Shown: piece after piece, positions 20,875 through 37,846 of the stretch
Layout: every line of letters starts with the position of its first letter
Numbering within the stretch: position 1 is the stretch's first letter
From: Hymenobacter swuensis DY53
Lineage (GTDB): Bacteria > Bacteroidota > Bacteroidia > Cytophagales > Hymenobacteraceae
Reading direction: 5' to 3'
Assembly: GCF_000576555.1 (NCBI RefSeq)
Contig: NZ_CP007145.1
Coordinates: 186,001-250,000, forward strand
DNA: 64,000 nt
Program-made: the position numbers and the translations under genes
Notes under the pieces: model-generated
Seen by the model: only the letters and a program-made list of their open reading frames with translations
The model's database searches: none
Told to the model about the DNA's origin: nothing

Positions 20875-21636
20875 CTATAATACCCCGCTGTCGGTCATCT
20901 TTTTGATCATCTCCCGGTAGCTGATTCCAATAGGTATTTCCGTGTTATTAGCCATTTCAATGACGTTGCCATTGATGGCTTTGATGGCCGACTTCTGCAC
21001 AATATAGGAACGGTTGACCCGCAGGAAATCGGTTTCATGTAGCATTTCCTCCATTTTGGTCATCGTCATGTGGGTGGTGATGACTTTGCCCGTGGTGTGG
21101 ATTTTTAGGTAGTCTTTCATGCCTTCAATGAAAAACACTTCGGCCAATGCTACTTTCAGAAACCGCTTGTTCTCCTTAATCAATAGCATGCGCCGTTTGT
21201 CCGTCAGCTCGGGCTCGTTGGCTGGGGGTAACTCAGGCCGGGAAGGTGCTGCGGGCACCGGCGTTTTAAGGCGCACCTTCTCCCGCACCTTATTTACCGC
21301 CTTCACAAACCGGTCAAAAGTGATAGGTTTCAGGATGAAGTCTACCACATCGTATTCAAACCCCTGGATAGCGTATTCTGAGTAGGCGGTTGTCAGGATA
21401 ACGGCAGGCTTGAACTCATTGAAGGTTTTGAGGAACTCAATGCCGTTCATTTCGGGCATGTTCACATCCAGAAAAATGAGGTCGGGCCGGAGCTCTTCCA
21501 CTTTCCCTAGGGCTTCAATGGCGTTATCAAACACGGCCACTACTTCCAGAAACCCCAGCCGCCCCGCATACTTCAGAATCAGGTCCTGGGCCAGGGGCTC
21601 ATCGTCAATGATGACACACGCTAACGGGTTACTCAT
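20875..21636 (-). CDS. LytTR-family response regulator
   Basis: 253-aa two-component regulator. The receiver domain (about 5-125) has acidic pair DDE, phospho-acceptor in LIFLDVNMPEMNG (Asp about 56), Thr in TTAY and Lys in LKPITF. The C-terminal LytTR DNA-binding domain (about 150-250) shows LIKENKRFLKVALAEV, FIEGMKDYLKIHT and FLRVNRSYIV. It abuts the kinase gene with no gap, so the two are co-expressed. It lies at the distal end of the lanthipeptide operon and is a good candidate for its control. Confidence 0.93.
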   Translation of the reverse strand: MSNPLACVIIDDEPLAQDLILKYAGRLGFLEVVAVFDNAIEALGKVEELRPDLIFLDVNMPEMNGIEFLKTFNEFKPAVILTTAYSEYAIQGFEYDVVDFILKPITFDRFVKAVNKVREKVRLKTPVPAAPSRPELPPANEPELTDKRRMLLIKENKRFLKVALAEVFFIEGMKDYLKIHTTGKVITTHMTMTKMEEMLHETDFLRVNRSYIVQKSAIKAINGNVIEMANNTEIPIGISYREMIKKMTDSGVL

Positions 21637-22749
21637 CTACCAGATTTTTAACAGAACAGCATATTGGGTTTCGCTTTGCTTTATCTCCAGCGAATGTAGG
21701 GCCGGATAGATAATATTGAGGCGGCGGCGGGTGTTGCGAATGCCAATTCCTTCCCGCACTTCCTCCCCCGACTGCGGCGGCTTGGAGTTGACCACGGAAA
21801 AGCAGAAGGCGCCGGTTTCGTCGCGGTAGGCCTTAATCCGGATCCAGGCCTTTTTAATGAGCTTATCCACGCCGTGCTTGATGGCATTCTCGATGAAGTT
21901 GATAAGCAGCAGCGGCGGAATGCTCTGGTGGCCTATCTGATGGGAAATATCCATTTCTATTTCCAGGCGCCGACTGTGGCGGATAGTTTGAATTTCGATG
22001 TAGTTCTTGATGAAAGCCAGCTCTTTATCTACCTCTACCTCCGTGGTGTTGGAGTCATAAAGGGCGTAGCGCATCATATTCGAGAGGGAGAAGACGATGG
22101 AAGCCGCCGTGCGGTCCTTATCCTCAATGAGTGAATATACACTATTCAAGGTATTAAACAGGAAATGCGGGTTGATCTGGGAGCGAAGAAAGTTGAGCTC
22201 CAGTTTCAGATTGTCCTTTTCCAGCGCAATACTCTTGATGCGGGACTGGAAAGCGGCCCGGAAGGCCTTGATAATAAGCGGGACGAAAATGGCCAGCACC
22301 AACTGCTCGAAATGAAAGTAGAGCACTTCCGGGTCGCGCAGGAACGTCCAGGCACCTTGCTTGGAGAGGCTGCGCACCAGGTTTTTGAAATACAGCGGCA
22401 TGGTGGGCACCGTTGTATTGATGTAGTTATAGGTGTAATAGGCCAGCAGACTGTAGCAGATAAGGGCAATGGTGAGCACACCCAGCACCAGCCCCCAGAT
22501 CTGGGGAGTGGGCAGCTTGAGGGCGATGCAGTAGGAAATCAGGTAGAAGGAAATGAGCACTACCACGTTCTTGTCCAGTGCGATAATCATCGTCACGAAC
22601 GGGTGGCCTTCGCCGCTGAGCCAGCGGCCCTGGAAGGCAAACCAGTTGTAAGCCACCACCCAGAACAGGACGTGCAGCAGAATAGTGATATTCTTGTTGC
22701 TGTTGGTACCGGATAAAATGGCGGTAAGTCCTTTTGATTGGTCCAGCAT
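21637..22749 (-). CDS. LytS/YehU-type sensor histidine kinase
   Basis: 370-aa membrane kinase. Four hydrophobic segments in the first 180 residues are followed by the His_kinase motif LRSQINPHFLFNTLNSVY (phospho-acceptor His in NPHFLFN, about residue 195). An abbreviated HATPase domain has PLLLINFIENAIKHGV (N box) and GIGIRNTRRRL. It signals to the LytTR regulator encoded immediately downstream. It starts about 150 bp after the exporter gene, with a hairpin between, so it may have its own promoter while remaining part of the same locus. Confidence 0.93.
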   Translation of the reverse strand: MLDQSKGLTAILSGTNSNKNITILLHVLFWVVAYNWFAFQGRWLSGEGHPFVTMIIALDKNVVVLISFYLISYCIALKLPTPQIWGLVLGVLTIALICYSLLAYYTYNYINTTVPTMPLYFKNLVRSLSKQGAWTFLRDPEVLYFHFEQLVLAIFVPLIIKAFRAAFQSRIKSIALEKDNLKLELNFLRSQINPHFLFNTLNSVYSLIEDKDRTAASIVFSLSNMMRYALYDSNTTEVEVDKELAFIKNYIEIQTIRHSRRLEIEMDISHQIGHQSIPPLLLINFIENAIKHGVDKLIKKAWIRIKAYRDETGAFCFSVVNSKPPQSGEEVREGIGIRNTRRRLNIIYPALHSLEIKQSETQYAVLLKIW

Positions 22750-22779
22750 AAAATAAGGAGGGAGAGAACAAACACAAGG

Positions 22780-22803
22780 AGGTGTGCGGATTACCGCACA
22801 CCT
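22780..22803 (-). terminator. Hairpin between exporter and kinase genes
   Basis: Perfect 10-bp stem AGGTGTGCGG (22780-22789) / CCGCACACCT (22794-22803), 4-nt loop. The following minus-strand sequence is only moderately T-rich (CCTTGTGTTTGTT), so this could be a weak terminator or attenuator lowering kinase expression. Confidence 0.55.
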
Positions 22804-22896
22804 CAGGTTTTACATCTGGGCAGAAATGTAGGGAATTTGTACAGCCAAGCCGAGTAGGCCGGCGGCCTGACGTCCGGTTTTTTGCGCGAACCGGGG

Positions 22897-25083
22897 CTAG
22901 TTGCCCAACTCCAGCTGGTTGTGCACCAACTGATAGTAGTGCCCCCGCAGGCCGACCAACTCCTCGTGGGTGCCGATTTCCTGCACTTTGCCTTTGTTGA
23001 GCACCACAATCTGGTCGGCATTCTTCACGGTGCTTAGCCGGTGAGCGACTACCACTACCGTCCGGCCCGCGAAAAACCGGTCCAGGTTCTCCATAATGAT
23101 CTTCTCGTTATTGGCATCCAGGGCGTTGGTGGCCTCATCGAAAAACAGGAAACTGGGGTCTTTGTAAATGGCCCGGGCAATGAAAATCCGCTGCTTCTGG
23201 CCTTGGCTCAGGCCGTTGCCCTCGGCCCCGATTTTGGTGTTGAGGCCCAGCGGGGAGTCCTTGATGAACTGCTCAATATTGGCGGCCCGGATGGCGTGCA
23301 GCAGCTTAGGCAGGTCCTTCTTCTCGTCGCTCACCATGATGTTGTTGGCAATGGTATCGGAGAAGATGAAGCCTTCCTGCATCACTACGCCGCACTCCTT
23401 GCGGATGGCCGTATGGGAAATGGAGTTGTAATCGGTGTCCTCCATGCTGATACTGCCGGTTTCGGGCTGGTAAATCTTCAGCAACAACTTCAGAATGGTG
23501 GTTTTGCCGCTGCCACTGTCGCCCACAATGGCCGTTACCTTGCCCGGCGGAATGTACAGGTCGATGCCGCGCAGCACGGGGTGGTTACCCGCCCCGGGAT
23601 AGGTGAAGTTGACGTCGCGCAGATGAATGGACTTTTCGTCGGGTAGGTTGGTAATCAGAAATTTATCTTCGGGTTCCTCGTCGGGTACCCGGTGGATGTC
23701 GTTGAGCCGGTCCACGCTGATTTTGGCATCTTGGGCCGTTTGCATGAACTGGATGAGCTGTTCCACCGGCAGGTTCAGCTGGCCCACAATGAACTGAATA
23801 GCCAGCATTTCGCCCAGCGTAAGCGTACCGTTCAGAACGGCCTGCGCCGCGTAAAAAATGATGAGGATATTCTTCGTCTGGTTGATGAAGAATGCGCCTA
23901 GCTGCTGATATTGGCTTAGCGCCAGCGTCTGGGTGTTGTAATTGAACAGCTTGGCCTGAATTCGCTCCCATTCCCAGAGCTTGTAGCTGCCGCAGTCATT
24001 GAGCTTGATTTCGTGGACGCCGCCGATGAGCTGCATGATGTTGTTCTGGCTGGTGCTGGAAATAGCAAAACGCTTGTAATCTAGCTTCTTGCGGTAGCGC
24101 AGAAAGATGGTCACCCAGGCCATGTACAGCAGGCTGCCCCCCATGAAAATCAGGAAGATGGAATTGTTGAATGACAGTAGCACGCTCCCGAATACCAGCA
24201 GGCTGATGATGGAAAACAGCGTGTTCAGCAGCGTGCCCGTCAGAAACAGCTCGATGCGGCGTTGGTCGTTGATGCGCTGTATGATGTCGCCGGTGATGCG
24301 CGAATCAAAGAACGAAAGCGGCAGGCGCAGCAGCTTCATCAGGAAATCGGAGAGGATGGCAATGCTAATGCGGCTGCTGATGTGCAGCAGAATCCAGCCC
24401 CGAATAAATTCCACCGAGGTTTGCCCGATGGACAAGAGCAACTGCCCAGCCAGCACGATGTAAATGAACTGTACGTCGCGGGTGTTGAGACCGATATCCA
24501 CGATGGCCTGGGTCAGGAATGGGAGCAGGCTTTGTAGGAACGCACCCGCCAGCAGCCCCACCAACAGCTGCAGAAACAGGTGCTTATGGCTGGTCAGGTA
24601 AGCCAGAATTTTGGCCACGCCAATGGAGCTGTCAATTTCCTCCTCCACCGAGTAGAAGGATGGAGTAGGCTCCACAAACAGCACAATCCCTTCTTCCTTC
24701 ACCCCTTCCCCAATCTGCCACTTCTCCAGAAACTCCGTTTTCCTGTACGAAAGCAGGGATTTGCCGGGGTCGGCCACAAACACCCGGTCTTTCTTTACCT
24801 TGTAAATGACCACAAAATGGTTCTGGTCCCAGTGGGCAATGCAGGGCAAGTTGGCCTCCGTGAGCAGGTCTTTATAGTGCACTTTAGCGCCCACGGCCCG
24901 GAAGCCAATCTGCTCGGCGGCCTTGCTGATGCCGAGCAGGGACACCCCGTTGCGGCTGTGGCGGGTTTTCTGGCGCAGCGTTTCAAGGCTGAAGTTTTTG
25001 CCATAAAACCGGGCTATCATCCGCAGGCAGGTAGGCCCGCAATCCATGGATTCGAGCTGCCGGTAATGAGGAAACGTTGTCAT
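22897..25083 (-). CDS. lanT: C39 peptidase-containing ABC exporter (LanT/bacteriocin type)
   Basis: 728-aa transporter that trims double-glycine leaders and exports the product. The N-terminal C39 peptidase has Cys15 (MDCGPTCL), His89 (NHFVVIY) and Asp105 (ADPG), all present. A six-helix ABC membrane domain (about 160-450) follows. The nucleotide-binding domain has Walker A GDSGSGKTT (about 520), signature LSQGQKQR, Walker B FLFFDEAT and the H-loop VVVAHRLST. The precursor peptides at 31479, 31802, 32028 and 32509 all carry GG sites that suit it. It is the fifth gene of the minus-strand RiPP operon and starts 73 nt after the oxidoreductase stop. Confidence 0.95.
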   Translation of the reverse strand: MTTFPHYRQLESMDCGPTCLRMIARFYGKNFSLETLRQKTRHSRNGVSLLGISKAAEQIGFRAVGAKVHYKDLLTEANLPCIAHWDQNHFVVIYKVKKDRVFVADPGKSLLSYRKTEFLEKWQIGEGVKEEGIVLFVEPTPSFYSVEEEIDSSIGVAKILAYLTSHKHLFLQLLVGLLAGAFLQSLLPFLTQAIVDIGLNTRDVQFIYIVLAGQLLLSIGQTSVEFIRGWILLHISSRISIAILSDFLMKLLRLPLSFFDSRITGDIIQRINDQRRIELFLTGTLLNTLFSIISLLVFGSVLLSFNNSIFLIFMGGSLLYMAWVTIFLRYRKKLDYKRFAISSTSQNNIMQLIGGVHEIKLNDCGSYKLWEWERIQAKLFNYNTQTLALSQYQQLGAFFINQTKNILIIFYAAQAVLNGTLTLGEMLAIQFIVGQLNLPVEQLIQFMQTAQDAKISVDRLNDIHRVPDEEPEDKFLITNLPDEKSIHLRDVNFTYPGAGNHPVLRGIDLYIPPGKVTAIVGDSGSGKTTILKLLLKIYQPETGSISMEDTDYNSISHTAIRKECGVVMQEGFIFSDTIANNIMVSDEKKDLPKLLHAIRAANIEQFIKDSPLGLNTKIGAEGNGLSQGQKQRIFIARAIYKDPSFLFFDEATNALDANNEKIIMENLDRFFAGRTVVVVAHRLSTVKNADQIVVLNKGKVQEIGTHEELVGLRGHYYQLVHNQLELGN

Positions 25084-25156: not shown

Positions 25157-26104
25157 CTAAACGGCGGCGGCTTTTTTCGCTTTGACCGGCGGAGCTTTCA
25201 GGCTGAAGGCTTCGCTCCAAAGCTCCAGGGCCACGGCGCGGTCCTTGGGTTTCATGGCCACGTTCATCAGGATAATTTCATCGAAGCCATAGTCCTGCTG
25301 GTATTGCAGAGCCGTGTCATAAAATTGGTTGGCGGTGCCTACAATGTTGTAGTCGTAGCCTTCCTCGGTGGCAAACACGGCGGCTTTGGCTTTGGCCGTG
25401 GTGTGGTGCACCGCCCCGGCCAGCACCAGATTCGTTTGCGGGTAGTGGCCGTGTAGGGCGAAGAAAGACTCTTTAAACGCCAGCAACTCCTCCTTGTGAA
25501 ACTCCCGGTCGGCTCCCTTGTGGAAGATGGAGCGCGAGAGGTTCATCCTATTATCAATGGCGCGCTGCAGGCCCCGGCCCATATTGGTCGTCAGCGACCA
25601 GACTTCGGGGATAGTGCCCTTAAACGGGGGAATGACGGTGCCCAATTGTAGGAGCTCTTCCTCGTTGCGCAGGCAGAACAGTAGCTTTTCGAGGTGGCGG
25701 GCAAACGACTCAGGCATGTTCAAACCCGCAATGCCGGTGGCCAGCTCCGCCACCGTGGGCATCACGCCGCCATTGGCCAGGCCCAGATCAATACGGCCGG
25801 GAAACAGATTGTTGAGCATCTTGTAGTCGCCGGCTACGTGGTAGGGCTGGTGGATACCCAGCAGAATTCCGGCTACTCCAATCTTGATGCGACTGGTCAT
25901 GCCGGCCAGTAAGGGGAGCAGAATGGTGGGGTTGCTCCAGGACTGCTTCTTGGAAGAAATGTGGTGCTCACTGATCCAGAGCCGGGAAAAACCCAGTAAA
26001 TCGGCTCGGCTGGCGTAATCCAGCAGGTCCGTTACGCGCAGCAGGCTGTTCATCTCCGTATGACGAATGCCAAAATCCAATAAACCAATGGAGAGCTTTT
26101 TCAT
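25157..26104 (-). CDS. Luciferase-like (LLM, MsnO8-type) flavin oxidoreductase in the RiPP operon
   Basis: 315-aa TIM-barrel flavoenzyme of the luciferase-like monooxygenase superfamily. Conserved elements are LGFSRLWISEHH (substrate/flavin pocket His), SRIKIGVAGILL, FPGRIDLGLANGG and the C-terminal FDEIILM. It is 24 nt downstream of the canonical lanC gene and upstream of the exporter gene, clearly inside the operon. Some LLM-type enzymes (LanJC class, for example in lexapeptide biosynthesis) reduce dehydroalanine to D-alanine with F420H2. A similar tailoring step is a reasonable hypothesis here, but FMN use or an oxidative step is equally open. The Lys/Ala-rich tail is unusual. Confidence 0.85.
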   Translation of the reverse strand: MKKLSIGLLDFGIRHTEMNSLLRVTDLLDYASRADLLGFSRLWISEHHISSKKQSWSNPTILLPLLAGMTSRIKIGVAGILLGIHQPYHVAGDYKMLNNLFPGRIDLGLANGGVMPTVAELATGIAGLNMPESFARHLEKLLFCLRNEEELLQLGTVIPPFKGTIPEVWSLTTNMGRGLQRAIDNRMNLSRSIFHKGADREFHKEELLAFKESFFALHGHYPQTNLVLAGAVHHTTAKAKAAVFATEEGYDYNIVGTANQFYDTALQYQQDYGFDEIILMNVAMKPKDRAVALELWSEAFSLKAPPVKAKKAAAV

Positions 26105-26128: not shown

Positions 26129-27349
26129 CTAGAAGAGAAAAAGCTGCTCCCAGGACGTTGGGGTATCCAGCATTTCCGTGACGAGAATCAGCAGCATTCC
26201 CGGAATGCCCATCAGCAGCCCCGGGGCGTGCTTGTTGGTGAGGGCCTGTCGGTATTCTTCGTCGAGGTAAGTGGTAGTGCGGTGCAGCCAGTACTTTTTG
26301 GCCTCGGAGTAGCAGGCCAGGGGCATTTCGCGCAGCAGGGCGTTGTAGCACATAACTAGGCTAGCTGAGCCGTGACAGATATGCGCATTCTCGATACCGG
26401 AGGCCTCCAGCGTGCGGCGGGTGCAGGTGTACGCGCCTACCTCATCGGCAAGGGCCACTAGGTGAGGCAGCTGTAGGATGCGGGCGGCGCGGTAAAGCAC
26501 CAGCACCACGTTCAAATCACCGTAACACCAGCCCATGCGGTTGTTGTACTTCACGCGGTTCAGCGGGTCGCTCGGTGCTATATCGTCATCGAAGCGGGCC
26601 GGGAAGAAGGAGTGGTAGCCGTTTTCCGGCTCGGGAGGCAGCTGCAGGCTTAGCAGGTACCGAAGCATGCCGGTGGCTACCGGCCGGATTTCCGCCTGCA
26701 GGGTGCCGGCCTCGTATAGTTTCAGCAGCACCAGCAGCAGCCCGCATTGCCCGTGGGCTAGGCCCAGGTTCATATCGGTGCTGTTGTTCATGCGGTTGAT
26801 GTGGGAGTTGTAGAACCGTACGCCGCGCGCATCTTCCACCTTGTGCGCCAGCAAGTCCTGAAGCAGGATGCGCAGGTAGCCGGCGGCGGCCGGGTTGTGG
26901 CCTAGGCGGGTGCTGAGGTAGTTGAGGGCCCCCACGGAGCCGTACAGAAAATCGATGTTGCGGTCCTGCAGGTTAGCCTGCGTATTCCGAAATACCACTT
27001 CATCCAGCTGCCGCAGCGTGTCAGTTCCCAGGTCGATGTCGGTTATGCCATCAGTGCTCAGCACCTGCAGCAGGTAACACAGGCATGGAATCACGCCGGG
27101 TACACTAATCAGGGCCGAGCCGGCCGGGTTCCGGAGTTTGTCCAGCACTTCATCCAGGCAGGTCATGGCGTGGTCCCAGTGGCCTTCCTCGCCCGTCAGC
27201 TTATAGGTGTAGGCATACAGCAGCACATGGCCCAGCTTGCCCGAAAACAGGGAAATATCCGTGGCCGGCAGCTGCGGGAGCAGGTTCAGCCCTTCCGTCA
27301 GGTAGGCCGACAGGTTTTTTTCAGCGGTAAATGAAGCAGTAGCCGGCAT
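26129..27349 (-). CDS. lanC: Canonical LanC lanthionine cyclase
   Basis: 406-aa double alpha-barrel cyclase that adds Cys thiols to dehydro-residues on the precursor peptide. All zinc ligands are visible: Cys275 (GWCYGD), Cys325 and His326 (ICHGSA). The general-acid His lies in GLAHGQCG, Arg271 sits four residues before Cys275, and the Asp of DFLYGSVG is present. The start at 27349 leaves a single base after the stop of the upstream lanC-like gene. An ATG at 27361 is in frame and would overlap by 11 nt. Its presence with LanB defines a class I lanthipeptide pathway. Confidence 0.93.
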   Translation of the reverse strand: MPATASFTAEKNLSAYLTEGLNLLPQLPATDISLFSGKLGHVLLYAYTYKLTGEEGHWDHAMTCLDEVLDKLRNPAGSALISVPGVIPCLCYLLQVLSTDGITDIDLGTDTLRQLDEVVFRNTQANLQDRNIDFLYGSVGALNYLSTRLGHNPAAAGYLRILLQDLLAHKVEDARGVRFYNSHINRMNNSTDMNLGLAHGQCGLLLVLLKLYEAGTLQAEIRPVATGMLRYLLSLQLPPEPENGYHSFFPARFDDDIAPSDPLNRVKYNNRMGWCYGDLNVVLVLYRAARILQLPHLVALADEVGAYTCTRRTLEASGIENAHICHGSASLVMCYNALLREMPLACYSEAKKYWLHRTTTYLDEEYRQALTNKHAPGLLMGIPGMLLILVTEMLDTPTSWEQLFLF

Positions 27350-27350
27350 G

Positions 27351-28562
27351 TCAGTAACCAATCAGGGATAGAAGAACAGAAGAGTCGGTTTCGTACTCAA
27401 GCAGGGCCAGGCCATAGCCGGGCACGCCCTCGAACAGGGAGTAGTGGGCACTGGCCGTTTGCTGATTATAGTGGCCTTTGTAGCCGGCCACGCAGCCGGG
27501 CTGCTGGCTCAGGTGGTGCGCCTGCTGGTGCCAGTAGGCGGCAGCCTCCTGGAAAGCCGGGCGCTGCATCGTCTGGTACAGGTACTTGAAAAACAGGCTG
27601 TTTCCGCTGGCGCCATAAATCAGGGAGGCATCGGGGACGCGGCACTCCGGGGCACCCCGGCGGTAGGCTGCCGACGTAAGCACCGCCAGCGCGGCCGTGT
27701 GCAAGGTTTCCTCCGCGAGGGCCTGGCTTGTTTGCAGCAGGGCAAAGCCGATGCCCAGGTCGCCGTAACAGAGGTTGAGGGTATTGGAGGGTCCCGGCTG
27801 CCCCACCACGTCCGGAAACAGGTTCAGGCCGTTGGTGGTCTGGTGGGCCAGCAGGTAGCGGCTGGCTCCCCGCATGGCGGCCTGTAGCTCCGACTGCCGG
27901 TACGTGCCACCGGTTTGCAGCACCTTGGCCAGGAACAGCAGCACCGCAGCTATACCATGGCTCCAGCCGGTGTATACCTGGTTTTTGTCAAACAGATAAG
28001 AGCGCCAGAAACCGCCCTGCGCTTCTTCTTCATAGGTGCGCAACAGCGTGTCCAGCACCTGTCGCACGGCCTGCTCGGCTCCGGCCGTGCGCCGGCCCAG
28101 CAGATACGTGGCCGCCGGCAGGTAGCCCACAAACGGATCAAACAGCTCCTGTTTAGTAAGCAAGGAAATGCCCGGCAGCAGCAGGTGGTCTATTTTTTCC
28201 AGAACCAGTTCAAACGATTCATCCAGATAATGCTGCTCGCGCAGGTAGCGGATAACGGTGCCGGCTTCTGCCAGCTCCCGGTAATACAGCGTGGAAGTAG
28301 CCGGGTAGCTGGGCAGCAGTTTAATGGCCGTCAGCAGGATTTCGGCCGCGCCGGCCGCGTGCGTTTCACTCTCGGTGAGCGTGGCGTAGGTGTGCAGGAA
28401 CAGAAACGCCCCCAGTCGCCCCCCCGACAGTCCCGGACTGGCCGGCAATTCCGCGCGGTTGGCCAGCAGAAAGTCGGCAATGGCGCGGAGCTTCTCCCGC
28501 AACGGCTCCGCTTCCACTTCGGCCAGCAGGTGGGCGCTACTTGATGCGGCTCTCTTCATCAC
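27351..28562 (-). CDS. LanC-like protein lacking zinc ligands (probable pseudo-cyclase)
   Basis: 403-aa protein with the LanC fold signature: helical repeats and glycine turns WSHGIA, LNLCYGDLGIG and a C-terminal GVPGYG. Cys265 matches the first zinc ligand, but the CHG motif is replaced by Ile315-Tyr316-Gly, removing two of three zinc ligands. The Arg four residues before the first ligand is Thr261. The His of SHG and an Asp in LFDPFVG remain. It therefore should not bind zinc as NisC does. It is translationally coupled to both neighbours, overlapping the receptor gene by 26 nt and ending 1 nt before lanC. A scaffold, partner or regulatory subunit of the true cyclase is the likely role. Confidence 0.88.
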   Translation of the reverse strand: MMKRAASSSAHLLAEVEAEPLREKLRAIADFLLANRAELPASPGLSGGRLGAFLFLHTYATLTESETHAAGAAEILLTAIKLLPSYPATSTLYYRELAEAGTVIRYLREQHYLDESFELVLEKIDHLLLPGISLLTKQELFDPFVGYLPAATYLLGRRTAGAEQAVRQVLDTLLRTYEEEAQGGFWRSYLFDKNQVYTGWSHGIAAVLLFLAKVLQTGGTYRQSELQAAMRGASRYLLAHQTTNGLNLFPDVVGQPGPSNTLNLCYGDLGIGFALLQTSQALAEETLHTAALAVLTSAAYRRGAPECRVPDASLIYGASGNSLFFKYLYQTMQRPAFQEAAAYWHQQAHHLSQQPGCVAGYKGHYNQQTASAHYSLFEGVPGYGLALLEYETDSSVLLSLIGY

Positions 28563-30975
28563 CGGAGGCGTTGCGGCTCTTGGAAGAAGCCTTGATCTTC
28601 TGGTTGCCGAAGCTGTAAGTAAGCGTCGCCTGCAGGAAGTTGGAATCCCAGCGGTACAGGGAGCGGGTGCGCAGGTTGCTGAAGCGCGTATCGGTGAGGG
28701 CCCGGGACGTTTTCAGCACGTCGTTGTACACTACCCGCAAAGCGAGCCGGTCGGCCAGAAATTTCTTCTGGAGCCCGAGGTTCACCGAGTATTGCCCCCG
28801 GTTGCGGCTCACACCATACGGGGCCGGACTCTGGAAGTAGCCCGAGACGCTGGCATTCCAGCCACCCTTGATTTTGAAGTCGTTGGTCATGCCATACACC
28901 CCCGAAAAGCCGCGAATGGTCTGAGGGGCGTTTTCCGTGGACTGCAGGGAGTAAATGCTGTAATAGCCGTTGAAAAAATTGGAAATATTCCACCACGCAA
29001 ACGGCGCGTAGGGGGCCGTTATCGTGAGGCCGTATTGGCTCTGACTATTCAGGTTTTCGGCTCTCGACTGGGTGACCAGCGAATTAGGCGTTTCGCGCTG
29101 CGTAACCCAGGAAATCAAATTATTCGTCCGGGAATAACCGGCTGCAATTACGTAAGTGCCATTAACGGTATAGGTAAGGTCTATGTTATTGGCATATTCA
29201 GGTCGTAAAAACGGGTTGCCCTGTGAGTAAGAATAAATATCCTGAAAATAAATAAATGGATTTAGGTCCTGGTAACTGGGGCGTTGTAATCTGCGGGAAT
29301 AATTGAGACTTAGAAAATCATCTTTGCCAACGGCTTGATTTAATAAAATAGAAGGGAAGAAATTGGTATAGTTTCGCTTGTTGAGAATGTTGCTGGTAAC
29401 CAAATGCCCTTCTGACTGTGTATTTTCCAGTCGGCCCCCAATCCGGTAATCCAGTTTATTGATTTTGCCGCTATAGCTTAGGTATGCAGCCATAATATTC
29501 TCTTTATAGGAAAAATAGTTAGTGCGTTGCGGATCATTTACCCAGTCAATTTCCCGATCCAGCTTTTCGTAGCGGGCGTCGTTATCCGTTTCTACCCGGC
29601 TGAACTTGAGGCCGGCTTCGAGCTTGTGCGTACCAATGGTCTGTTCGTAATCGGTTTGGGCCGCCAGAATCTGAATGGCGGTTGGCAGCACGTTCCGCAG
29701 GCTGATGCCCGGGGCCAGATTTTTCCCCTCGGGCGTAGTGAAGGAGTTGACAATGAGGTTCGTCTGCCGGCTGTCGTAGTTGGAGTAATCCAGATCAGCG
29801 GAAATAGTGCGCACCGAGTCGATGGTGTGGCGCAGGCCCAGGTTGCTGGAGTACTGGGTGGTGCCATATTTCGTATCGGTGAGGCTGAGCAGTGTAGAGT
29901 CCGGGGTGGCGGCGTAGCGCAGCAGCTGGGTAGCGGCCGTGGCATTGCGCGTCTTGTCGGAAGTAAAGCCCCGCAGGTAGAGGTTGACGCTGGTGCGGGG
30001 ACTCAGGGTCCAGTCGAGGCCGGCGCGGTAGTTATGCGCCAGGGAGCGGGAAGGATTTACCAGGTCGGTTTTGTGGGTGGTCAGGACCTGGCCGGTGGCT
30101 TCATCCAGGTAATCGAGGCGGTTCTGCTCGGTAGTAGTTACCTGCCGGGCCGACAAGGTATAGCCCGCCGACAAGGCCATGGCGCCCCGCCGGTGGTTAA
30201 GGCTGAGGCCCAGATTCTGCCGGCTGTTTTTGGTGAAGGCCCCGCCGGCCGTTACGGTAGCTTTGGTGCCGTCCTGCAGGCCTTTTTTGGTAACAATATT
30301 GATGACGCCGCCGGGTCCTTCGGCGTCGTAGCGGGCTCCGGGGCTGGTTATCAGCTCTATCTGCTGCACCTCATTGCTTTGCAGGCCCTTCAGAAATACG
30401 GCCAGGTCAGCCTCCGACATGTAGGTTTTCTTGCCATCCAGAATCACCGTGGCGCCCTTGCCATTCAGGGTGATGGACTCGCTCTTGGGGTTGACGTAAA
30501 TGCCCGGCGACTTCTCCAGAACCTCCAGCGCGGTGTAGCCGGAGGCCAGCACCGTATTGGAGATGTTCACAATCATGCGGTCCGGCTTCTGGATGATGGT
30601 GGGCCGGGTGGCCGTAATGGTCACCTCTTTCAGGGCCGTGGCATGGTTGGCGGCCAGCCGAACAGTAAGGCGGGCTACCGGTTCACCGGCGGTTACCTGC
30701 ACCGGCCGGCTGTCGGAGCTAAAGCCGATAAAGGAGGTTTTGAGCAGGTAGCTGCCAGCTGCCACGCCCGGCAGGCTAAAGGCGCCGGTAGCATCAGTAG
30801 TAGTGGCCGTAACGTGGGTGGAATCCTGGGCTTTGAGCAGGACCACGGTGGCAAACTCCACCGGCGCCGGCCCTTCGCCCAGCACCTGCCCGGTAATAGT
30901 GACACCCTGAGCCCACGCTGGCGCGGTGCTCAGCAGCCAGAAGAAAAGTGCGAGTAGAATCCTGCCGTGTCGCAT
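28537..30975 (-). CDS. TonB-dependent-type outer-membrane receptor of the RiPP operon
   Basis: 812-aa outer-membrane protein: signal peptide (AWAQ, about residue 22), a carboxypeptidase-regulatory-like beta-sandwich (about 25-110, ITGQVLGEGPAPVEFATVVL), a plug domain (about 120-230, with GGVINIVTKKG) and a large C-terminal barrel of the OMP_b-brl_3 type. It is the first gene of the minus-strand operon and overlaps the lanC-like gene by 26 nt, so its product level is tied to the biosynthetic enzymes. Possible roles are release or re-import of the lanthipeptide, or self-immunity. It is not a SusC protein; no SusD partner is present. Confidence 0.9.
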   Translation of the reverse strand: MRHGRILLALFFWLLSTAPAWAQGVTITGQVLGEGPAPVEFATVVLLKAQDSTHVTATTTDATGAFSLPGVAAGSYLLKTSFIGFSSDSRPVQVTAGEPVARLTVRLAANHATALKEVTITATRPTIIQKPDRMIVNISNTVLASGYTALEVLEKSPGIYVNPKSESITLNGKGATVILDGKKTYMSEADLAVFLKGLQSNEVQQIELITSPGARYDAEGPGGVINIVTKKGLQDGTKATVTAGGAFTKNSRQNLGLSLNHRRGAMALSAGYTLSARQVTTTEQNRLDYLDEATGQVLTTHKTDLVNPSRSLAHNYRAGLDWTLSPRTSVNLYLRGFTSDKTRNATAATQLLRYAATPDSTLLSLTDTKYGTTQYSSNLGLRHTIDSVRTISADLDYSNYDSRQTNLIVNSFTTPEGKNLAPGISLRNVLPTAIQILAAQTDYEQTIGTHKLEAGLKFSRVETDNDARYEKLDREIDWVNDPQRTNYFSYKENIMAAYLSYSGKINKLDYRIGGRLENTQSEGHLVTSNILNKRNYTNFFPSILLNQAVGKDDFLSLNYSRRLQRPSYQDLNPFIYFQDIYSYSQGNPFLRPEYANNIDLTYTVNGTYVIAAGYSRTNNLISWVTQRETPNSLVTQSRAENLNSQSQYGLTITAPYAPFAWWNISNFFNGYYSIYSLQSTENAPQTIRGFSGVYGMTNDFKIKGGWNASVSGYFQSPAPYGVSRNRGQYSVNLGLQKKFLADRLALRVVYNDVLKTSRALTDTRFSNLRTRSLYRWDSNFLQATLTYSFGNQKIKASSKSRNASGDEESRIK

Positions 30976-31478: not shown

Positions 31479-31670
31479 ATGAAAGTCTTGCAGAATTTTA
31501 TAAAGTCATTCAGTAAAAAAGCCTCCGCTTATATTCCGGGGGAGAGTTTTTTATCCGTGAATGAAATGGATTTGGTTTTCGGTGGTAAGCCCGAAGAAAT
31601 TGCATCTGATGATGCCTATTGGTGGATAGACGAGCAGGATTTATCAGATATTGATACACTGATTAAGTAG
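31479..31670 (+). CDS. Cysteine-free double-glycine peptide
   Basis: 63-aa peptide from ATG 31479; the longer frame from 31440 adds 13 basic residues. The leader ends LSVNEMDLVFGG, a textbook double-glycine C39-peptidase site with the usual L-S-x-x-E-M/L pattern. The predicted 27-residue product begins KPEEIAS, contains a Tyr-Trp-Trp cluster and many Asp/Glu, and has no Cys, so it cannot form lanthionine rings by itself. It is the first gene of the plus-strand arm. It may be an unmodified bacteriocin, a signalling peptide for the two-component system, or a helper peptide. I do not recognise the mature sequence. Confidence 0.7.
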   Translation: MKVLQNFIKSFSKKASAYIPGESFLSVNEMDLVFGGKPEEIASDDAYWWIDEQDLSDIDTLIK

Positions 31671-31801: not shown

Positions 31802-31993
31802 ATGAAGAAGAAATCCATCTCCCTGGACAAGTCCCTTTCCCTGGACAAGGAAACCGTAGCCAAGCTCAATGAAGACCAGCTGGGCGACGTAGTTGGTGGC
31901 GGTACCACCAACACCTGCAACGGCACCCCGCCTGCCCAGGAACTCGAAGCCATTCCCACCATCAATTCCTGCCAGGCTTGCTCCTGCAACTAA
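31802..31993 (+). CDS. Class I lanthipeptide precursor 1
   Basis: 63-aa precursor from ATG 31802. The leader has the Bacteroidota class I pattern LDKETVAKLNEDQL...VVGG, a GG processing site for the C39 exporter. The core after GG has about 30 residues, with one Cys in TNTCN and three in SCQACSC, plus several Thr/Ser that LanB could dehydrate. Its leader is identical in protein sequence to precursor 2, which starts 34 nt after its stop. Ring pattern cannot be predicted with certainty. Confidence 0.88.
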   Translation: MKKKSISLDKSLSLDKETVAKLNEDQLGDVVGGGTTNTCNGTPPAQELEAIPTINSCQACSCN

Positions 31994-32027: not shown

Positions 32028-32222
32028 ATGAAGAAGAAATCCATCTCCCTGGACAAGTCCCTTTCCCTGGACAAGGAAACCGTAGCCAAGCTCAATGAAG
32101 ATCAGCTGGGCGACGTAGTTGGTGGCGGTACCACTAACACCTGCAACAACGTGCCGGCCCAGGAACTCGAAGCCATTCCCACGATTGGCTCCTGCCAGGC
32201 TTGCTCCTGCAACGGAGGTTAA
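32028..32222 (+). CDS. Class I lanthipeptide precursor 2
   Basis: 64-aa near-duplicate of precursor 1. The leader is identical in protein sequence and differs at DNA level by silent changes only. The core differs by small changes (NGTPP becomes NNVP, INSC becomes IGSC) and a two-Gly C-terminal extension, while all four Cys are kept. The true start is ATG 32028; a longer open frame upstream only reads across precursor 1 in another frame. A terminator hairpin follows 9 nt after the stop. Confidence 0.88.
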   Translation: MKKKSISLDKSLSLDKETVAKLNEDQLGDVVGGGTTNTCNNVPAQELEAIPTIGSCQACSCNGG

Positions 32223-32508: not shown

Positions 32509-32718
32509 ATGAGAAAGAAGTATGTTCAGCTGAACGCCGCTTTGGCGCTGGATAAGGAAACCATTACCCGCCTCAATGAGGAGCAGTTGCAGGATCTGGT
32601 GGGCGGGCAGGTTACGGAAGGCGTTATCACCCAGTCATCGTGCGGGGCCTTCAGTTGCAACCCCGTGGACTGCTACGGTGGCCCCCGAGGAACAGAAGCT
32701 CCCAACCAACCCGGGTAG
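32509..32718 (+). CDS. Class I lanthipeptide precursor 3 (divergent core)
   Basis: 69-aa precursor with the same leader architecture as precursors 1 and 2 (ALDKETITRLNEEQLQDLVGG) but a wholly different core. The core has Cys in SSCGAFSC and DCYGG and a Cys-free tail rich in Pro/Gly (PRGTEAPNQPG). The three Cys with nearby Ser/Thr suggest up to three rings. It has its own strong terminator downstream, so it is a separate transcription unit. The same LanB/LanC/LanT set presumably processes it, meaning one enzyme set with several products. Confidence 0.88.
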   Translation: MRKKYVQLNAALALDKETITRLNEEQLQDLVGGQVTEGVITQSSCGAFSCNPVDCYGGPRGTEAPNQPG

Positions 32719-32973: not shown

Positions 32974-35900
32974 ATGGCTGCCACGCCCCCCCTGAAGCTG
33001 GAATCGGAGAAATATTACCTGCTGAGGAAGCCCCTGTTACCACTCCAGACGGTACTTGACCTGAACGAACAAACCCGGCAGGAGCCCGCGCAGCTGGGGC
33101 CGGCGCTGTTGCACCTGTTCCGCGACGAGCAGTTGCAGGAGGCCATCTACACGGCTTCGCCGGAACTGTACGCGGAGCTGCACAAGGTGCTGGCAAAAGG
33201 CCTGGACCCCACCGGCAAGGACGACCGGCTGGTGGCCACGCTCTACAAGTACCTGATTCGGATGAGCATGCGCTGCACGCCCTATGGGCTGTTTGCGGGC
33301 TGCGCGAGCGGCGCGCTGGCGGAAACTACCACGTTTAATTTCACCGGGGTACCACCCCTAAAACAGTCCCGGCTGGATATGAACTACGTGAATGAGCTGG
33401 TGCAGCACCTGCTCAGCACCACGGAAGTGAAATACCAGCTGCGCTACTTTCCTAACAACAGCCTGTACGCCATTGCCGACAGCTACCGGTACGTAGAGTA
33501 CAAGGTTAAGAATAAGCGCCGCCACTACTCCATCACCTCGGTTCGAAAATCGAGCTACCTGGAGGTACTGTTGCAGGCAGCTGGTCCGGGTATCCACTTT
33601 GCCCGGCTGGTGGAACTGATACAAGCTGCGGAACCGGAAGCCACGCCAGCGGAGGCCCAGGCCTATATTGAGGAGCTGATTGATTCCCAGTTGCTGATCA
33701 ATGAGCTGGAGCCCACCATTACGGGCGCGGTATTTTTTGAAGGACTGCCACAGAAGCTAGCCGGTAAAGTAGCGGCTCCGGTGGTAGCGCAGGTAGCGGA
33801 AATACAGCAATTGCTGGAAGCGGGCGGAGTACGCAACTTTCAGCGGGTGCACCAGCTGATCAACACGTCCTTCGGGCAGTCCAGCTCCAAGGACCTGATT
33901 CAGACCGACCTCTTTTTCAGGCCGGAGAGTAACACGCTCAAAACAGAAGTAATAGAAACCGTGACCAGCCAGCTCAGTGAGCTATTCGCGCTGGCCAATA
34001 AAACCAACCTGCCAGACCTGGAACGCTTCAAGAAGGACTTTGTAGAGCGTTTCGAGGACCGGGAAGTGCCCCTGCTGCTAGCCCTGGACAGCGAAACCGG
34101 CGTGGGCTACGGCCGCGCCGAGGCGGGTCGCAGTGACCACCTGCCGCTGCTGGATGGCATCACGCCGCGTACTAACACTGCTCCCAAAAGCGCCGAGTGG
34201 AAAAAGTACACGCAGTTGGTGCACCGCCTGTTCCGGCAGGCGGCGGCCACCGGCGCGCAGGCCGTGGAGCTGACTCCCGCTGACCTGGCCGGCCTGGAGG
34301 CGAAACCCGACCTGGGCCGCAACACACCCGCCAGCCTCTACGCGTTCGGCTCCCTGTTGGCCAGCTCTCCGGCCGCCCTGGATGCGGGCGACTTCCGGTT
34401 TGCCCTGGGCGTGTGCTCGGCCCCATCGGCCGCGAACCTGCTGGGCCGCTTCTGCTACGGCGATACCGCGCTGCTGGATAACGTGAAAGCCAGCCTGCAA
34501 CGCGCCGAGCCTGACACGGAAGAAGCCGTGTACGCGGAAGTAGTTCACCTGCCCGAGGCGCGCATTGGTAACATTCTGATGCGGCCTCATTTGCGGACGT
34601 ATGAAATTCCGTTTTTGGGGCTGTCGGCCGCGCCGGCCGAGCACCAGATTACGGTGCAGGACCTGCGGGTATCGGTGCGGCAGGGGCAGCTGGTACTCCG
34701 TTCGGCCCGCCTGAACAAACGCGTTATTCCCCGGCTGTCCTCAGCGCACAACTACACCACGGGGCTGCCCATTTACCGCTTCCTGTGCGATTTACAGAAG
34801 CATGACATCTACTTCGGCGTGAGCTGGTACTGGGATAACCTCAGTTCGGAACCGTTTCTGCCCCGGGTGCAGTACCGGAACATCATCCTGACCAAAGCCA
34901 CCTGGCACCTCACACTGGCTGATCTGCAGCCGGGCGAGGGCCGCCGGAAACCCCTGACGGAAGCTGTGTTGCACCAGCACCTGCTGGACCGCAAACTGCC
35001 CCGGTTCTTCTGCCTGACCGACCATGACAACGAGCTGCTGATTGACGGCCACCACGCGGCGGCCCGGCAGCTGGTAGTGCAGCAGCTGGAAAAGAAAGGC
35101 CGCGTGACCCTCACCGAGTTTCTGGCTACGCCGGATAACTGTCCGCTGCAGGGCCCTGGCAATACCCACTACACAAACGAACTGCTGTTGCCACTCTACA
35201 ATGGGGCGTATGTGCCGCCGGGTACCCCGGCGCGCGCCTTACCGCTGCCCGATGTGACGCGCAGCTTTGCCCCGGGCAGCGAGTGGTTGTATCTGAAACT
35301 CTACGCCGGTACCAAAACCATGGACCGAGTACTGACCGAAAAAATCAGGCCGCTGGTGGCGCAGCTGCTGGTGGAAGGCATCATTGACAAGTGGTTTTTC
35401 ATTCGCTATAACGACCCTCACCACCACCTGCGGGTGCGCTTTCATGTGCCGGTGGGGCAGGAAAGCCGGTTTGCGCAGGTAGTGCAGGCGGTGCAGCAGA
35501 CCTTGGCGCCGGAGCTGGCGGAAGGGCTGGTGCATAAGCTTCAGCTCGATACCTACGTGCGGGAACTGGAGCGCTACGGGGCTGCCAACATGGAAAACTC
35601 AGAGTCACTTTTCTATCATGACAGCCAGGCTATAGCCAACGTACTCAGCCTGCTGGAAGGCGATGAAGGCGAAACCTACCGCTGGCTGCTGGCCCTGCGG
35701 GGCCTGGATGAGTTGCTGACGGATTTCGGGCTGGAGCTGCCGGCCAAGAAGCAGGTGTTGCAGCAACTGTCGGAGGCCTTCTTCCAAGAGTTCAACGGCG
35801 ACAAATCTTTGCAGGTGCAGCTCAACGAAAAGTACCGGCAGGAGTCGCGCCGGATCCGGAGCTTCCTGAACCCGGCCGAAGATGAGCACAATGGCATTGA

Positions 35901-36174
35901 GGAAGCCACGCAGGAGTTTCTGGTTCGGCGTCGGGAGTCGCGGGAAACGGTAGCGGCTATTCAAGGCCTGTATCCGCAGCCCCTGCCAGCTTCTGCGGCT
36001 GGTTTCAGCCTGCTGGCCAGCTACGTGCACATGTACGTCAACCGCTTTGTGCTGTCAAAGTCCCGCCTACATGAGCTGACGCTCTACGGGCTTCTGCACA
36101 AGCACTACACGGCTCAGGCTGCTATGGAAAAGAACACGCACTCCGCCCCCAAACCCGTGAGCTATGCCCTCTGA
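32974..36174 (+). CDS. lanB: Full-length class I lanthipeptide dehydratase (LanB)
   Basis: 1066-aa tRNA-glutamate-dependent dehydratase. The large N-terminal glutamylation domain (Lant_dehydr_N, about 1-740) shows SMRCTPYGLFAGCA (core tRNA/peptide-binding region) and LRTYEIPFLG. The C-terminal elimination domain (SpaB_C, about 765-1045) shows WLYLKLYAG, KWFFIRYNDPHHHLRVRFH and YVRELERYGAANM. LanB glutamylates Ser/Thr and eliminates glutamate to give Dha/Dhb. In several Bacteroidota clusters these domains are split into two proteins; here they are fused as in NisB. It overlaps the HlyD-type gene by 11 nt. Confidence 0.95.
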   Translation: MAATPPLKLESEKYYLLRKPLLPLQTVLDLNEQTRQEPAQLGPALLHLFRDEQLQEAIYTASPELYAELHKVLAKGLDPTGKDDRLVATLYKYLIRMSMRCTPYGLFAGCASGALAETTTFNFTGVPPLKQSRLDMNYVNELVQHLLSTTEVKYQLRYFPNNSLYAIADSYRYVEYKVKNKRRHYSITSVRKSSYLEVLLQAAGPGIHFARLVELIQAAEPEATPAEAQAYIEELIDSQLLINELEPTITGAVFFEGLPQKLAGKVAAPVVAQVAEIQQLLEAGGVRNFQRVHQLINTSFGQSSSKDLIQTDLFFRPESNTLKTEVIETVTSQLSELFALANKTNLPDLERFKKDFVERFEDREVPLLLALDSETGVGYGRAEAGRSDHLPLLDGITPRTNTAPKSAEWKKYTQLVHRLFRQAAATGAQAVELTPADLAGLEAKPDLGRNTPASLYAFGSLLASSPAALDAGDFRFALGVCSAPSAANLLGRFCYGDTALLDNVKASLQRAEPDTEEAVYAEVVHLPEARIGNILMRPHLRTYEIPFLGLSAAPAEHQITVQDLRVSVRQGQLVLRSARLNKRVIPRLSSAHNYTTGLPIYRFLCDLQKHDIYFGVSWYWDNLSSEPFLPRVQYRNIILTKATWHLTLADLQPGEGRRKPLTEAVLHQHLLDRKLPRFFCLTDHDNELLIDGHHAAARQLVVQQLEKKGRVTLTEFLATPDNCPLQGPGNTHYTNELLLPLYNGAYVPPGTPARALPLPDVTRSFAPGSEWLYLKLYAGTKTMDRVLTEKIRPLVAQLLVEGIIDKWFFIRYNDPHHHLRVRFHVPVGQESRFAQVVQAVQQTLAPELAEGLVHKLQLDTYVRELERYGAANMENSESLFYHDSQAIANVLSLLEGDEGETYRWLLALRGLDELLTDFGLELPAKKQVLQQLSEAFFQEFNGDKSLQVQLNEKYRQESRRIRSFLNPAEDEHNGIEEATQEFLVRRRESRETVAAIQGLYPQPLPASAAGFSLLASYVHMYVNRFVLSKSRLHELTLYGLLHKHYTAQAAMEKNTHSAPKPVSYAL

Positions 36175-37093
36175 AAACTACTACCACAGTGAGGTAAAGG
36201 AAATTATGCTCACCAAGCCCAGCTGGATATTGAAGTGGGGCAACGTCATTATTTTGGCGTTATTACTGCTGGTATTTGCGTTTGCGGCCTTCTTCACCTA
36301 CCCCGAGTCGCTGACTACCCCCATCACCCTCACGGCAGTACGGCCGGTGGAAGTGCTGAAGCCCCGGCCCGTGAACTGGGGCATTCAGGCCGTACTGGTG
36401 AAGGAGGGGGCCACGGTTACGCCCGGCACCCCGCTGGTTGCCTGGTACGATGCCGGACAGGCCGACTACCGGGAGGTGCTTCGGCTGGAAAAGCTATTGC
36501 GCGATTATGCTGCCCGGCCGCCGTTACCCGCTGGCACCACCCCAAGCCAAGGACTACTGCGCCGTTTTTTCAGAGTTGATACCCTGAAGCTGGGCACCCT
36601 GCGCGGCACGTACCGGATGCTCAACCAGCAGTTGCTGAAGCAGCACGATATTCCCGCCAGCCACATCACGCAGGGCCTGCGCCAGGTGGCCGCTTGGAAA
36701 GCAGAATGTATATCGTTGGCGCGCAGCACAGGACAGGCCCGCATCAACTACAGCCTGCCCCAAACAGCCACGCCGGTAGCGGCTACCCAACCCATCCTGT
36801 ACGTGCAGCCCCCGGCCGCCGAGTACGTGGCGCATGGCTACATCACTGATGCGCAGTATCCCACCGTAACTGCTGGCCAGAAGGTGTTTGTGACGGTGGC
36901 CGAGCTGGGTGGGACCCGCATTGCGGGGCGGGTGTTGGGCGTGGCTCCACTGGCCGAGAACAGCCGCCATAAAGTGTTTATTTGTCTGCTGCCCACTGAG
37001 AGGACGGTGCTGAACGCCACGTTTTCCGGCACGGCCCGCATTGTGCTGCATAACCGGCCGCTGCTGGAAAAATTTCTGTCCATCAAGAGCTGA
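36164..37093 (+). CDS. HlyD-type adaptor for the RiPP exporter
   Basis: 309-aa membrane-fusion protein: one transmembrane helix (about 28-47) followed by a beta-rich domain with the lipoyl half PVNWGIQAVLVKEGATVTPGTPL, a short helical hairpin (about 105-180) and a C-terminal barrel with an AGQKVFVTV strand. The start codon lies within the end of lanB (11-nt overlap), so they are translationally coupled. It should bridge the C39 ABC exporter to an outer-membrane duct. The hairpin is short compared with EmrA-type adaptors. No TolC gene lies in this locus; the one at 3318 or the TonB-type receptor could serve. Confidence 0.85.
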   Translation: MPSENYYHSEVKEIMLTKPSWILKWGNVIILALLLLVFAFAAFFTYPESLTTPITLTAVRPVEVLKPRPVNWGIQAVLVKEGATVTPGTPLVAWYDAGQADYREVLRLEKLLRDYAARPPLPAGTTPSQGLLRRFFRVDTLKLGTLRGTYRMLNQQLLKQHDIPASHITQGLRQVAAWKAECISLARSTGQARINYSLPQTATPVAATQPILYVQPPAAEYVAHGYITDAQYPTVTAGQKVFVTVAELGGTRIAGRVLGVAPLAENSRHKVFICLLPTERTVLNATFSGTARIVLHNRPLLEKFLSIKS

Positions 37094-37183: not shown

Positions 37184-37561
37184 TTACTGCTCAAGCAACG
37201 CCAGAGCCTGCGTGACTACCTGCTCGAACATCGGATACGTGAACGGCTTGGTCAGCACTTTTGAATAGCGTATTCCCAGGCTCTGAACAAAGGATTCGGG
37301 GTACGCTGTGGTGATGATGATGCTCTGAAATTGATCCGCGTTTATGCGCACTCCGTCGCCAATGCGGTAGGAGTCATTGGGCTTATCCAGTAAATCCAGG
37401 AAGACCAGATCTACCGGGGGAGTCTGTTGCTCATCTACCGTATCGGATAAAGATTCGATGCACCATGTCAGGCGCAGTTGGCTGTAGCGTTGCACATACT
37501 TGGTAATAAGTGCGCGGGCTAATTCTTCGTCTTCTACTATTCCACAAGTGAAAATACGCAT
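37184..37561 (-). CDS. Single-domain response regulator
   Basis: 125-aa stand-alone receiver (CheY-like) protein. It has an acidic pocket in GIVEDEEL, phospho-acceptor Asp in LVFLDLLD (about 54), Thr in IITTAY and Lys in LTKPFTY. There is no output domain. It sits convergent to the lanB-hlyD unit and directly downstream (same strand) of the 47-aa peptide gene, so it belongs to the RiPP locus by position. It may compete with the LytTR regulator for phosphate from the LytS-type kinase, or act by protein binding. Confidence 0.88.
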   Translation of the reverse strand: MRIFTCGIVEDEELARALITKYVQRYSQLRLTWCIESLSDTVDEQQTPPVDLVFLDLLDKPNDSYRIGDGVRINADQFQSIIITTAYPESFVQSLGIRYSKVLTKPFTYPMFEQVVTQALALLEQ

Positions 37562-37612
37562 AAGTAAGGGGCAATTAGGTGCTGCTGTAGGGGGAGGCGG
37601 CGAAACTTATAG

Positions 37613-37665
37613 AGCGCAAAAAAAGGCTGTTTGGAGTTGCTTCCGGAGCAACCCCAAACAGCCTT
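37613..37665 (-). terminator. Terminator of the 47-aa peptide gene
   Basis: Stem AAGGCTGTTTGG (37623-37634) / CCAAACAGCCTT (37654-37665) with an inner GTTGC/GCAAC pairing. On the minus strand it is followed by a run of T then GCGC. It starts 38 nt after the stop of the peptide at 37703-37846. Confidence 0.85.
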
Positions 37666-37702
37666 GACGAGCAATTCTGAAAAGAATAGTTCGGGGAAGC
37701 AA

Positions 37703-37846
37703 CTATACCGCGCGGCTGGTGCAGAGCGGAGTGGAAGTCAGGATGTCTTCGGTAACGAACAGCAGGCTGGCGCCGGCGGTAGAAAGATTCGTAACGGTTT
37801 CTTTTTTGATGTGGAGTTTCTGGGTAGGAGCAGTAAGCGTTTTCAT
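37703..37846 (-). CDS. 47-aa peptide, candidate lanthipeptide precursor with nisin-like ring A
   Basis: A short gene from ATG 37846 to TAG 37703. Residues 10-22 (KLHIKKETVTNLS) match the leader pattern of Bacteroidota class I precursors, such as LDKETVAKLN in precursors 1 and 2. There is no GG site. The C-terminus ILTSTPLCTSRAV contains S-x-x-x-C next to Thr residues, closely resembling the ring-A region of nisin (ITSISLCT). With one Cys it could form a single lanthionine ring. A rho-independent terminator follows, supporting a real gene. Its location, 140 nt upstream of the single-domain regulator, ties it to the locus. A role as product or signal is inferred. Confidence 0.7.
   Translation of the reverse strand: MKTLTAPTQKLHIKKETVTNLSTAGASLLFVTEDILTSTPLCTSRAV

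Follow-up and report, generated by a model that had tools for sequence, protein, structure and literature searches.

In a 64,000-nucleotide window of the Hymenobacter swuensis DY53 genome (G000, 5.25 Mb; contig C3, NZ_CP007145.1, positions 186001–250000), the genes between window positions 20875 and 37846 very probably form a class I lanthipeptide cluster of a Bacteroidota family. In this family, peptides with leaders ending in GG are matured by a C39 peptidase, a flavin-type enzyme of the luciferase-like mono-oxygenase (LLM) family is the predicted tailoring enzyme, and a LanC protein lacking the Cys/His pair of zinc ligands (LanC2) would act either as a zinc-free cyclase or as a partner of the ordinary one. 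The locus is real, probably active, and belongs to a known kind of class I cluster; its new part is a conserved variant, the combination of zinc-less LanC2 with a flavin-type LLM linked to LanB. Positions below refer to the window, and L and G numbers denote compared loci and genomes.

The gene list of an earlier sequence-only reading was borne out by Pfam and NCBIfam searches, which recovered a full-length LanB, a zinc-type LanC, a LanC paralogue, an LLM, a C39 exporter, an HlyD adaptor, a receptor and a LytS/LytTR pair in the span. The reading frames are open, and all main genes apart from that of a receiver-only protein have Pfam matches above cut-off. LanB (32974–36174, + strand) is one protein of 1066 residues with glutamylation and elimination domains (PF04738, 590 bits; PF14028, 237 bits), as in class I systems. 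It aligns over residues 15–943 with 9g04 and over 48–896 with NisB, and its Arg100/Thr102, Arg820/Arg822 and Glu864/Arg867 match NisB residues that we take to be catalytic. A separate cyclase, LanC1 (26129–27361, − strand; PF05147, 128 bits), keeps all three zinc ligands in the alignment to NisC (Cys279, Cys329 and His330, numbered from the listed start) and corresponds to the canonical LanC of the sequence-only reading. Three precursors, all on the + strand, combine a class I leader ending in GG with a core of Ser, Thr and Cys: A1 (31802–31993; 30-residue core, 4 Cys; NF038153, 55.6 bits), A2 (32028–32222; 31-residue core, 4 Cys; 55.6 bits) and A3 (32509–32718; 36-residue core, 3 Cys; 42.7 bits), against a cut-off of 22 bits for this leader family. 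Cleaved immediately behind GG and with all dehydrations made, the three cores would have calculated monoisotopic masses of 2911.215, 2944.236 and 3517.524. Of the “up to five” precursors first proposed, these three stand; of the other two, the peptide at 37703–37846 scored below the cut-offs and that at 31479–31670 had no family match. The exporter (22897–25083, − strand; PF03412, PF00664, PF00005) carries an N-terminal C39 peptidase with ABC domains and a candidate triad of Cys15, His89 and Asp105, and its predicted role is leader removal and export.

The suggestion that the combination might be unique to this genome was rejected, as the same arrangement occurs in other genomes. A search of 380 genomes gave 16 LLM places at E ≤ 1e-50, corresponding to 12 loci in 11 genomes including the window (one of the 11, G096, is listed as 7% contaminated). 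All 12 loci have the order LanC2 (without CHG), LanC1 (with CHG), LLM, together with LanB within about 20 kb, and in each LanC2 directly adjoins the LanC with all three ligands. Two LLM copies follow LanC1 in a row in four of them (L044–L047). The same LanC2–LanC1–LLM tandem with LanB was found in three named relatives (L104–L106), and the nearest named match among the best 80 LLM matches, Hymenobacter perfusus LMG 26000 (L107), has an LLM 97% identical to that of the window and the same cluster genes in the compared stretch. Within the genus, the genomes searched yielded an LLM at E ≤ 1e-50 only in G000 and G267. Partial versions also occur: LLM, zinc-type LanC and LanB without LanC2 (L053–L055), and LanC2 with LanB without LLM (L058, L061, L062). 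Shortened LLM frames of 89 and 127 residues lie beside LanC frames in L056 and L057, apparently decayed clusters, the latter having no LanB in its 20 kb. The 60 compared stretches were taken around LanB or LLM places, LLM-bearing ones first and the rest by falling LanB score; therefore proportions over these loci are not population estimates.

In a scan of genome contigs, LanB lay beside 5 of the best 80 LLM loci, which were the five top-scoring ones (H. perfusus, Longitalea luteola, a Cytophagales metagenome-assembled genome (MAG), a Flavihumibacter MAG and Chryseobacterium candidae); LanC2 is missing from the Longitalea one. A sample of 395 genomes of the phylum contained four LLMs above 260 bits, the next reaching 142; the three other than that of the window were all LanB-linked (L210–L212), versus none of nine lower-scoring controls. 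L210 has no LanC2, and L211 and L212 each have two LanCs, which are not adjacent. LanB relatives were present in 80 of 390 genomes of the window's order, and the LanBs of the 12 tandem loci fall into an 18-row group (support 98) with six others, including L058, L061 and L062. For LanB and for LanC, quick trees were calculated, with branch support from the Shimodaira–Hasegawa-like approximate likelihood ratio test (SH-aLRT) only.

The ratio of nonsynonymous to synonymous substitution (dN/dS), calculated against the nearest relative, was 0.02–0.12 in ten enzyme, transport, receptor and regulator genes (LLM, 0.03; LanB, 0.06; LanC2, 0.09; LanC1, 0.12). Together with the recurrence in other genomes, these low values indicate that the arrangement is more than chance. 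In the three precursors and the acidic peptide the ratio ranged from 0 to 0.30, the value of 0.19 for A1 having been measured against the same copy as for A2 and thus perhaps comparing paralogues. That the cluster is decayed and silent could be proposed from its patchy distribution in the genus, but with open frames and such ratios in the ten larger genes we regard this as very unlikely.

LanC2 (27351–28562, − strand; PF05147, 89 bits) is predicted to adopt the LanC fold, nearest to MadC and NisC (mean model confidence, pLDDT, 83). Ile315 and Tyr316 occupy the places of NisC Cys330 and His331, so the zinc-less character ascribed to it from the sequence was confirmed and it does not qualify as a zinc-dependent LanC; Asp142, His202 and Cys265 (NisC 141, 212 and 284) are retained. 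In the LanC tree, from which L107, L056 and frames of ≤250 residues were left out, 34 of 60 rows lack at least one zinc ligand. LanC2 belongs there to a group of 20 rows (SH-aLRT 99), whose members come from Chitinophagaceae, Weeksellaceae and the order of the window. All of them carry Tyr or Phe at position 331, and at least two of the three zinc ligands are gone in 19 rows. The equivalent of His212 is kept in 19 rows, that of Cys284 in 16, that of Asp141 in 11 and that of Cys330 in one (L050), while the LanC2 of L051 lacks the zinc Cys/His, Asp141, His212 and Cys284 equivalents alike. A second zinc-less LanC-like group of nine rows stands elsewhere in the tree (L089, L094–L096, L098–L101 and L058:17223-18422); its members lie near LanB and LytS/LytTR genes, and none has the His212 equivalent.

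A PF05147 search, which can miss divergent LanCs, found no zinc-type LanC in five genomes of 99–100 completeness that carry LanC2 with LanB (G152, G233, G100, G667 and G470). In G667 and G470, which belong to another order, the genome-wide search listed two LanC proteins each, both zinc-less: the ligands of the LanC1 orthologue are replaced as well (by Ser, by Phe or Tyr, and by Tyr), with Asp141 and His212 kept. The clusters of G152, G233 and G100 have no LLM, and one LanC lacking the zinc set was listed for each; in G152 a second LanC-like frame, that of L058 and also without the ligands, went unlisted.

It is possible, and we hold it tentatively, that LanC2 is a metal-independent thioether cyclase of class I, comparable to the zinc-free cyclase domain of class III LanKC, in which an aromatic residue takes the place of His331 in LanC2. 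This would agree with the well-supported single lineage, its invariant aromatic residue and near-invariant His212, with the purifying selection on LanC2, with the five genomes in which all LanC matches lack the zinc set, and with the precedent of ThurKC, which cyclises without zinc (PMC10604976). However, Asp141 is kept in little more than half of the group, L051 has none of the sites counted, the PF05147 search overlooked a divergent LanC in G152, and rings in those five genomes may form spontaneously or be absent. Furthermore, LanC-like proteins of Bacteroidales without the zinc triad, in clusters without LanB, have been judged unlikely lanthipeptide cyclases, as far as the account in PMC10352776 goes. 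The other reading, a real contender to which we assign somewhat less than an even chance, takes LanC2 for a pseudoenzyme that binds the leader, LanB or LanC1 and organises the modification complex while forming no rings. Its constant position next to a LanC with full ligands in the tandem loci and the loss of zinc ligands under a preserved predicted fold are what such a helper would show, but no zinc-type LanC was found in G667 and G470. If LanC2 were purely a helper, no recognised cyclase would remain in these two genomes, barring a LanC1 orthologue that has kept its ring-forming activity.

The LLM (25157–26104, − strand; PF00296) has its nearest solved relative, both in sequence and in fold, in MsnO8 (4us5). 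The best NCBIfam match was likewise the MsnO8 family (TIGR03558, 116 bits, under the cut-off of 167), and profile searches and the predicted model (pLDDT 89) placed the protein nearest to MsnO8 and other luciferase-like mono-oxygenases, with the F420-dependent enzymes 9g64, 9gm0 and 1rhc further down the fold list. In a tree of 96 LLMs, 23 LanB-linked sequences and that of L109 lie on one side of a branch with 100/100 support, and the second copies of the tandem pairs in L044–L047 form a branch of their own. The sequences of L210–L212, the shortened LLMs (L056, L057) and the duplicate L107 are not part of this tree. An F420 ligase (PF01996) was found neither in the own genome nor in 14 other LLM genomes, including G034, whose only LLM is a shortened one; three archaea served as positive controls of this search, and none of the controls was an actinobacterium that makes F420. 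CofH in the own genome reached 19 bits against a cut-off of 374. An F420-dependent enzyme of the LxmJ type is therefore unlikely.

Reduction and oxidation, both with flavin mononucleotide (FMN), are rated about equal as the reaction of this enzyme. The name LanJC was proposed for LLM enzymes that reduce dehydrated residues, on the basis of mass data for birimositide (Walker 2020, PMC7268733), and the enzyme of the window could be a reductase of this kind that converts dehydroalanine or dehydrobutyrine to D-amino acids with FMN in place of F420; we see this as a substantial possibility, short of even. The predicted cores of A1–A3, in which Ser and Thr exceed Cys by 2–3, would supply spare residues for it. 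Against it stand the mono-oxygenase relatives, the precursors of L049 and L051, in which the Ser/Thr count is not above that of Cys, and the cofactor: LxmJ uses F420H2 (PMC10373908, PMC8498797), and F420 ligase was not detected in the LLM genomes. Alternatively, the LLM may be an FMNH2/O2 mono-oxygenase that, for example, turns a thioether into a sulfoxide, a plausible reading that likewise falls below an even chance. GarO of actagardine performs such a conversion. The family match, the mono-oxygenase character of the nearest PDB entries and the position of the LLM directly after LanC1 in the tandem speak for this option, and the lack of an identified flavin reductase in the cluster speaks against it.

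Several observations weigh against the reading of the locus as a class I lanthipeptide cluster of one family. An outer-membrane receptor was detected within about 20 kb in 8 of the 12 tandem loci and may thus be an optional component. The contig that carries the LLM of L109 is only 10.4 kb long and has C39-ABC and HlyD genes but no LanB, which breaks a strict association of LLM and LanB; since L109 falls in the LanB-linked group, this label needs two changes on the LLM tree, although the long branches of L109 and of L053–L055 meet there and that join may be false. LanC2 could also be inactive. The core motif C-x(2-4)-S-C, considered as a shared feature, was found in 17 of 41 GG cores of these loci as compared with 10 of 30 elsewhere; it is a weak candidate, not clearly specific.

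Comparison with known systems delimits what is new. Class I precursors of Bacteroidetes are described with a leader of the type LxLxKx5L that in many cases ends in GG, often with a C39 protease in the cluster (Walker 2020, PMC7268733), and the class I lanthipeptide PedA15.2 from Pedobacter lusitanus is listed among the uses of the C39 protease LahT150 (2025 review, PMC12328550); abundant lanthipeptide clusters have been noted in Chryseobacterium, Pedobacter and Flavobacterium (PMC8358304). The locus shares with this subgroup the LanB/LanC chemistry, the NF038153 leader type, the GG end and the C39 protease in the cluster. Hence the joining of class I chemistry to GG/C39 maturation, well supported by the gene content, had to be rejected as a novelty because it is already in print (PMC7268733). 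The accounts of these clusters in PMC7268733 and PMC12328550, so far as they extend, mention neither an LLM nor a zinc-less LanC2. The likeness to the pinensin cluster of Chitinophaga pinensis suggested in the sequence-only reading holds for the class and the phylum; however, in the description given in PMC7268733 the pinensin LanB is split, whereas here it is a single full-length protein, and in this respect the locus departs from the pinensin type.

The LLM shares family membership and a lanthipeptide setting with the LanJC enzymes (the birimositide LLM and LxmJ), but those belong to clusters of class II (birimositide) and class V (lexapeptide), and LxmJ depends on F420H2, whereas the window's genome yielded no F420 ligase and its LLM has luciferase-like mono-oxygenases as nearest solved relatives. 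LanC2 resembles the cyclase domain of class III LanKC, such as that of ThurKC, in having the LanC fold without the full zinc set (PMC10604976); it differs in being a stand-alone protein in a class I cluster, with the Asp141, His212 and Cys284 equivalents kept and Ile/Tyr at 330/331. With the triad-less LanC-like proteins of Bacteroidales it shares the phylum, the loss of the triad and a location in clusters resembling those of ribosomally synthesized and post-translationally modified peptides, but the Bacteroidales clusters described in PMC10352776 have radical SAM enzymes and no LanB, whereas this locus has both LanB and class I precursors. No description of a LanC2–LanC1–LLM tandem with LanB was found in the open-access literature searched; the pairing of LLM and zinc-less LanC may thus still look new, as first suggested, but as a conserved family and not as a one-off.

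From the gene content we infer the catalytic steps, transport route, control and product as follows. LanB would dehydrate Ser and Thr in the cores of A1–A3, and LanC1 would close thioether rings with zinc, with LanC2 beside it as either a zinc-free ring-closing enzyme or an assistant of LanC1. The LLM may then modify the peptide with a flavin, probably FMN, either converting spare dehydro-residues to D-amino acids, as LanJC does, or oxidising the peptide, for example at a thioether. The C39 exporter is expected to cut after GG and to export the product together with the HlyD-type adaptor (36164–37093, + strand; PF13437). The TonB-type outer-membrane receptor (28537–30975, − strand; PF14905 and CarboxypepD_reg) most likely would serve uptake, self-protection or sensing, and the LytS/LytTR pair would control expression.

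This pair consists of a LytTR response regulator (20875–21636, − strand; PF00072 and PF04397) and a LytS-type histidine kinase (21637–22749, − strand; PF06580, with NPHFLFN at residue 193). At the opposite end of the cluster lies the single-domain regulator of the sequence-only reading (37184–37561, − strand), which does match PF00072, but at 24.7 bits, under the cut-off of 30.2. Beside it, a short peptide of class I type that lacks GG (PepB type; 37703–37846, − strand) scored under the cut-offs of both NF038158 and NF038153 and is a possible signal peptide; its dN/dS of 0.69 is based on just nine changes. The two resemble a module seen in other loci. Eighteen receiver-only proteins were found ≤1.5 kb downstream of a LytS kinase in the compared loci, with LanB adjacent in 16 and a LanC in the compared stretch in two. 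By eye, a short Ser/Thr-containing peptide without GG lies in the LytS–receiver gap in 15 of the 18, with one more each in L066 and L074, and in L104 the whole LytS–peptide–receiver module precedes the LanC tandem. Such an arrangement raises the possibility of a LanB-modified signal peptide that is sensed by LytS.

Modules of LytTR, LytS, short peptide, receiver and LanB with no LanC in the stretch were seen in L059, L064–L068, L070, L072, L073, L077, L080, L083 and L092. When LanB rows were labelled for the LytS–receiver module (a slightly wider set), 16 of 18 fell into one 18-row tree group. Beside the LanB module, L059:2612-4555 and L080:2792-3559 encode proteins, each about 120 residues long, whose long leaders end in GG; we take them to resemble precursors with nitrile-hydratase leaders. 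The acidic peptide of the window (31479–31670, + strand) has a GG leader and a Cys-free core, and its sole matches are the copies from the nearest relative (L042, L107; 84% identical). Acidic Cys-free peptides with GG leaders also lie near precursors at L061:6955-7167 and L062:12985-13197; sequence comparison of these two with the window peptide gave no match. The cluster is flanked by genes unrelated to it by Pfam: on one side a DPBB/SPOR protein, a beta-barrel protein and a penicillin amidase family protein (16307–18802, 729 bits), on the other a DUF72 protein and a large protein with a matrixin-type peptidase and TIG domains (39854–42079).

Taken further, the data allow the proposal, which we consider rather unlikely, that an old class I LanC lineage of Bacteroidota makes thioether rings without zinc, usually beside a zinc LanC, that zinc-less LanCs have taken over entirely in G667 and G470 and probably in G152, G233 and G100, and that many such clusters use a flavin-type LLM specific to the phylum to tailor the same peptides. 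According to PMC10604976, the cyclase domains of class III LanKC are the sole exception to a strict conservation of the zinc ligands, and the zinc-less lineage inside class I clusters contrasts with this. With zinc and zinc-less LanCs occurring naturally as pairs for the same substrates, the role of zinc in ring closure becomes directly testable, and the LLM group points to a further tailoring reaction in the lanthipeptides of Gram-negative bacteria.

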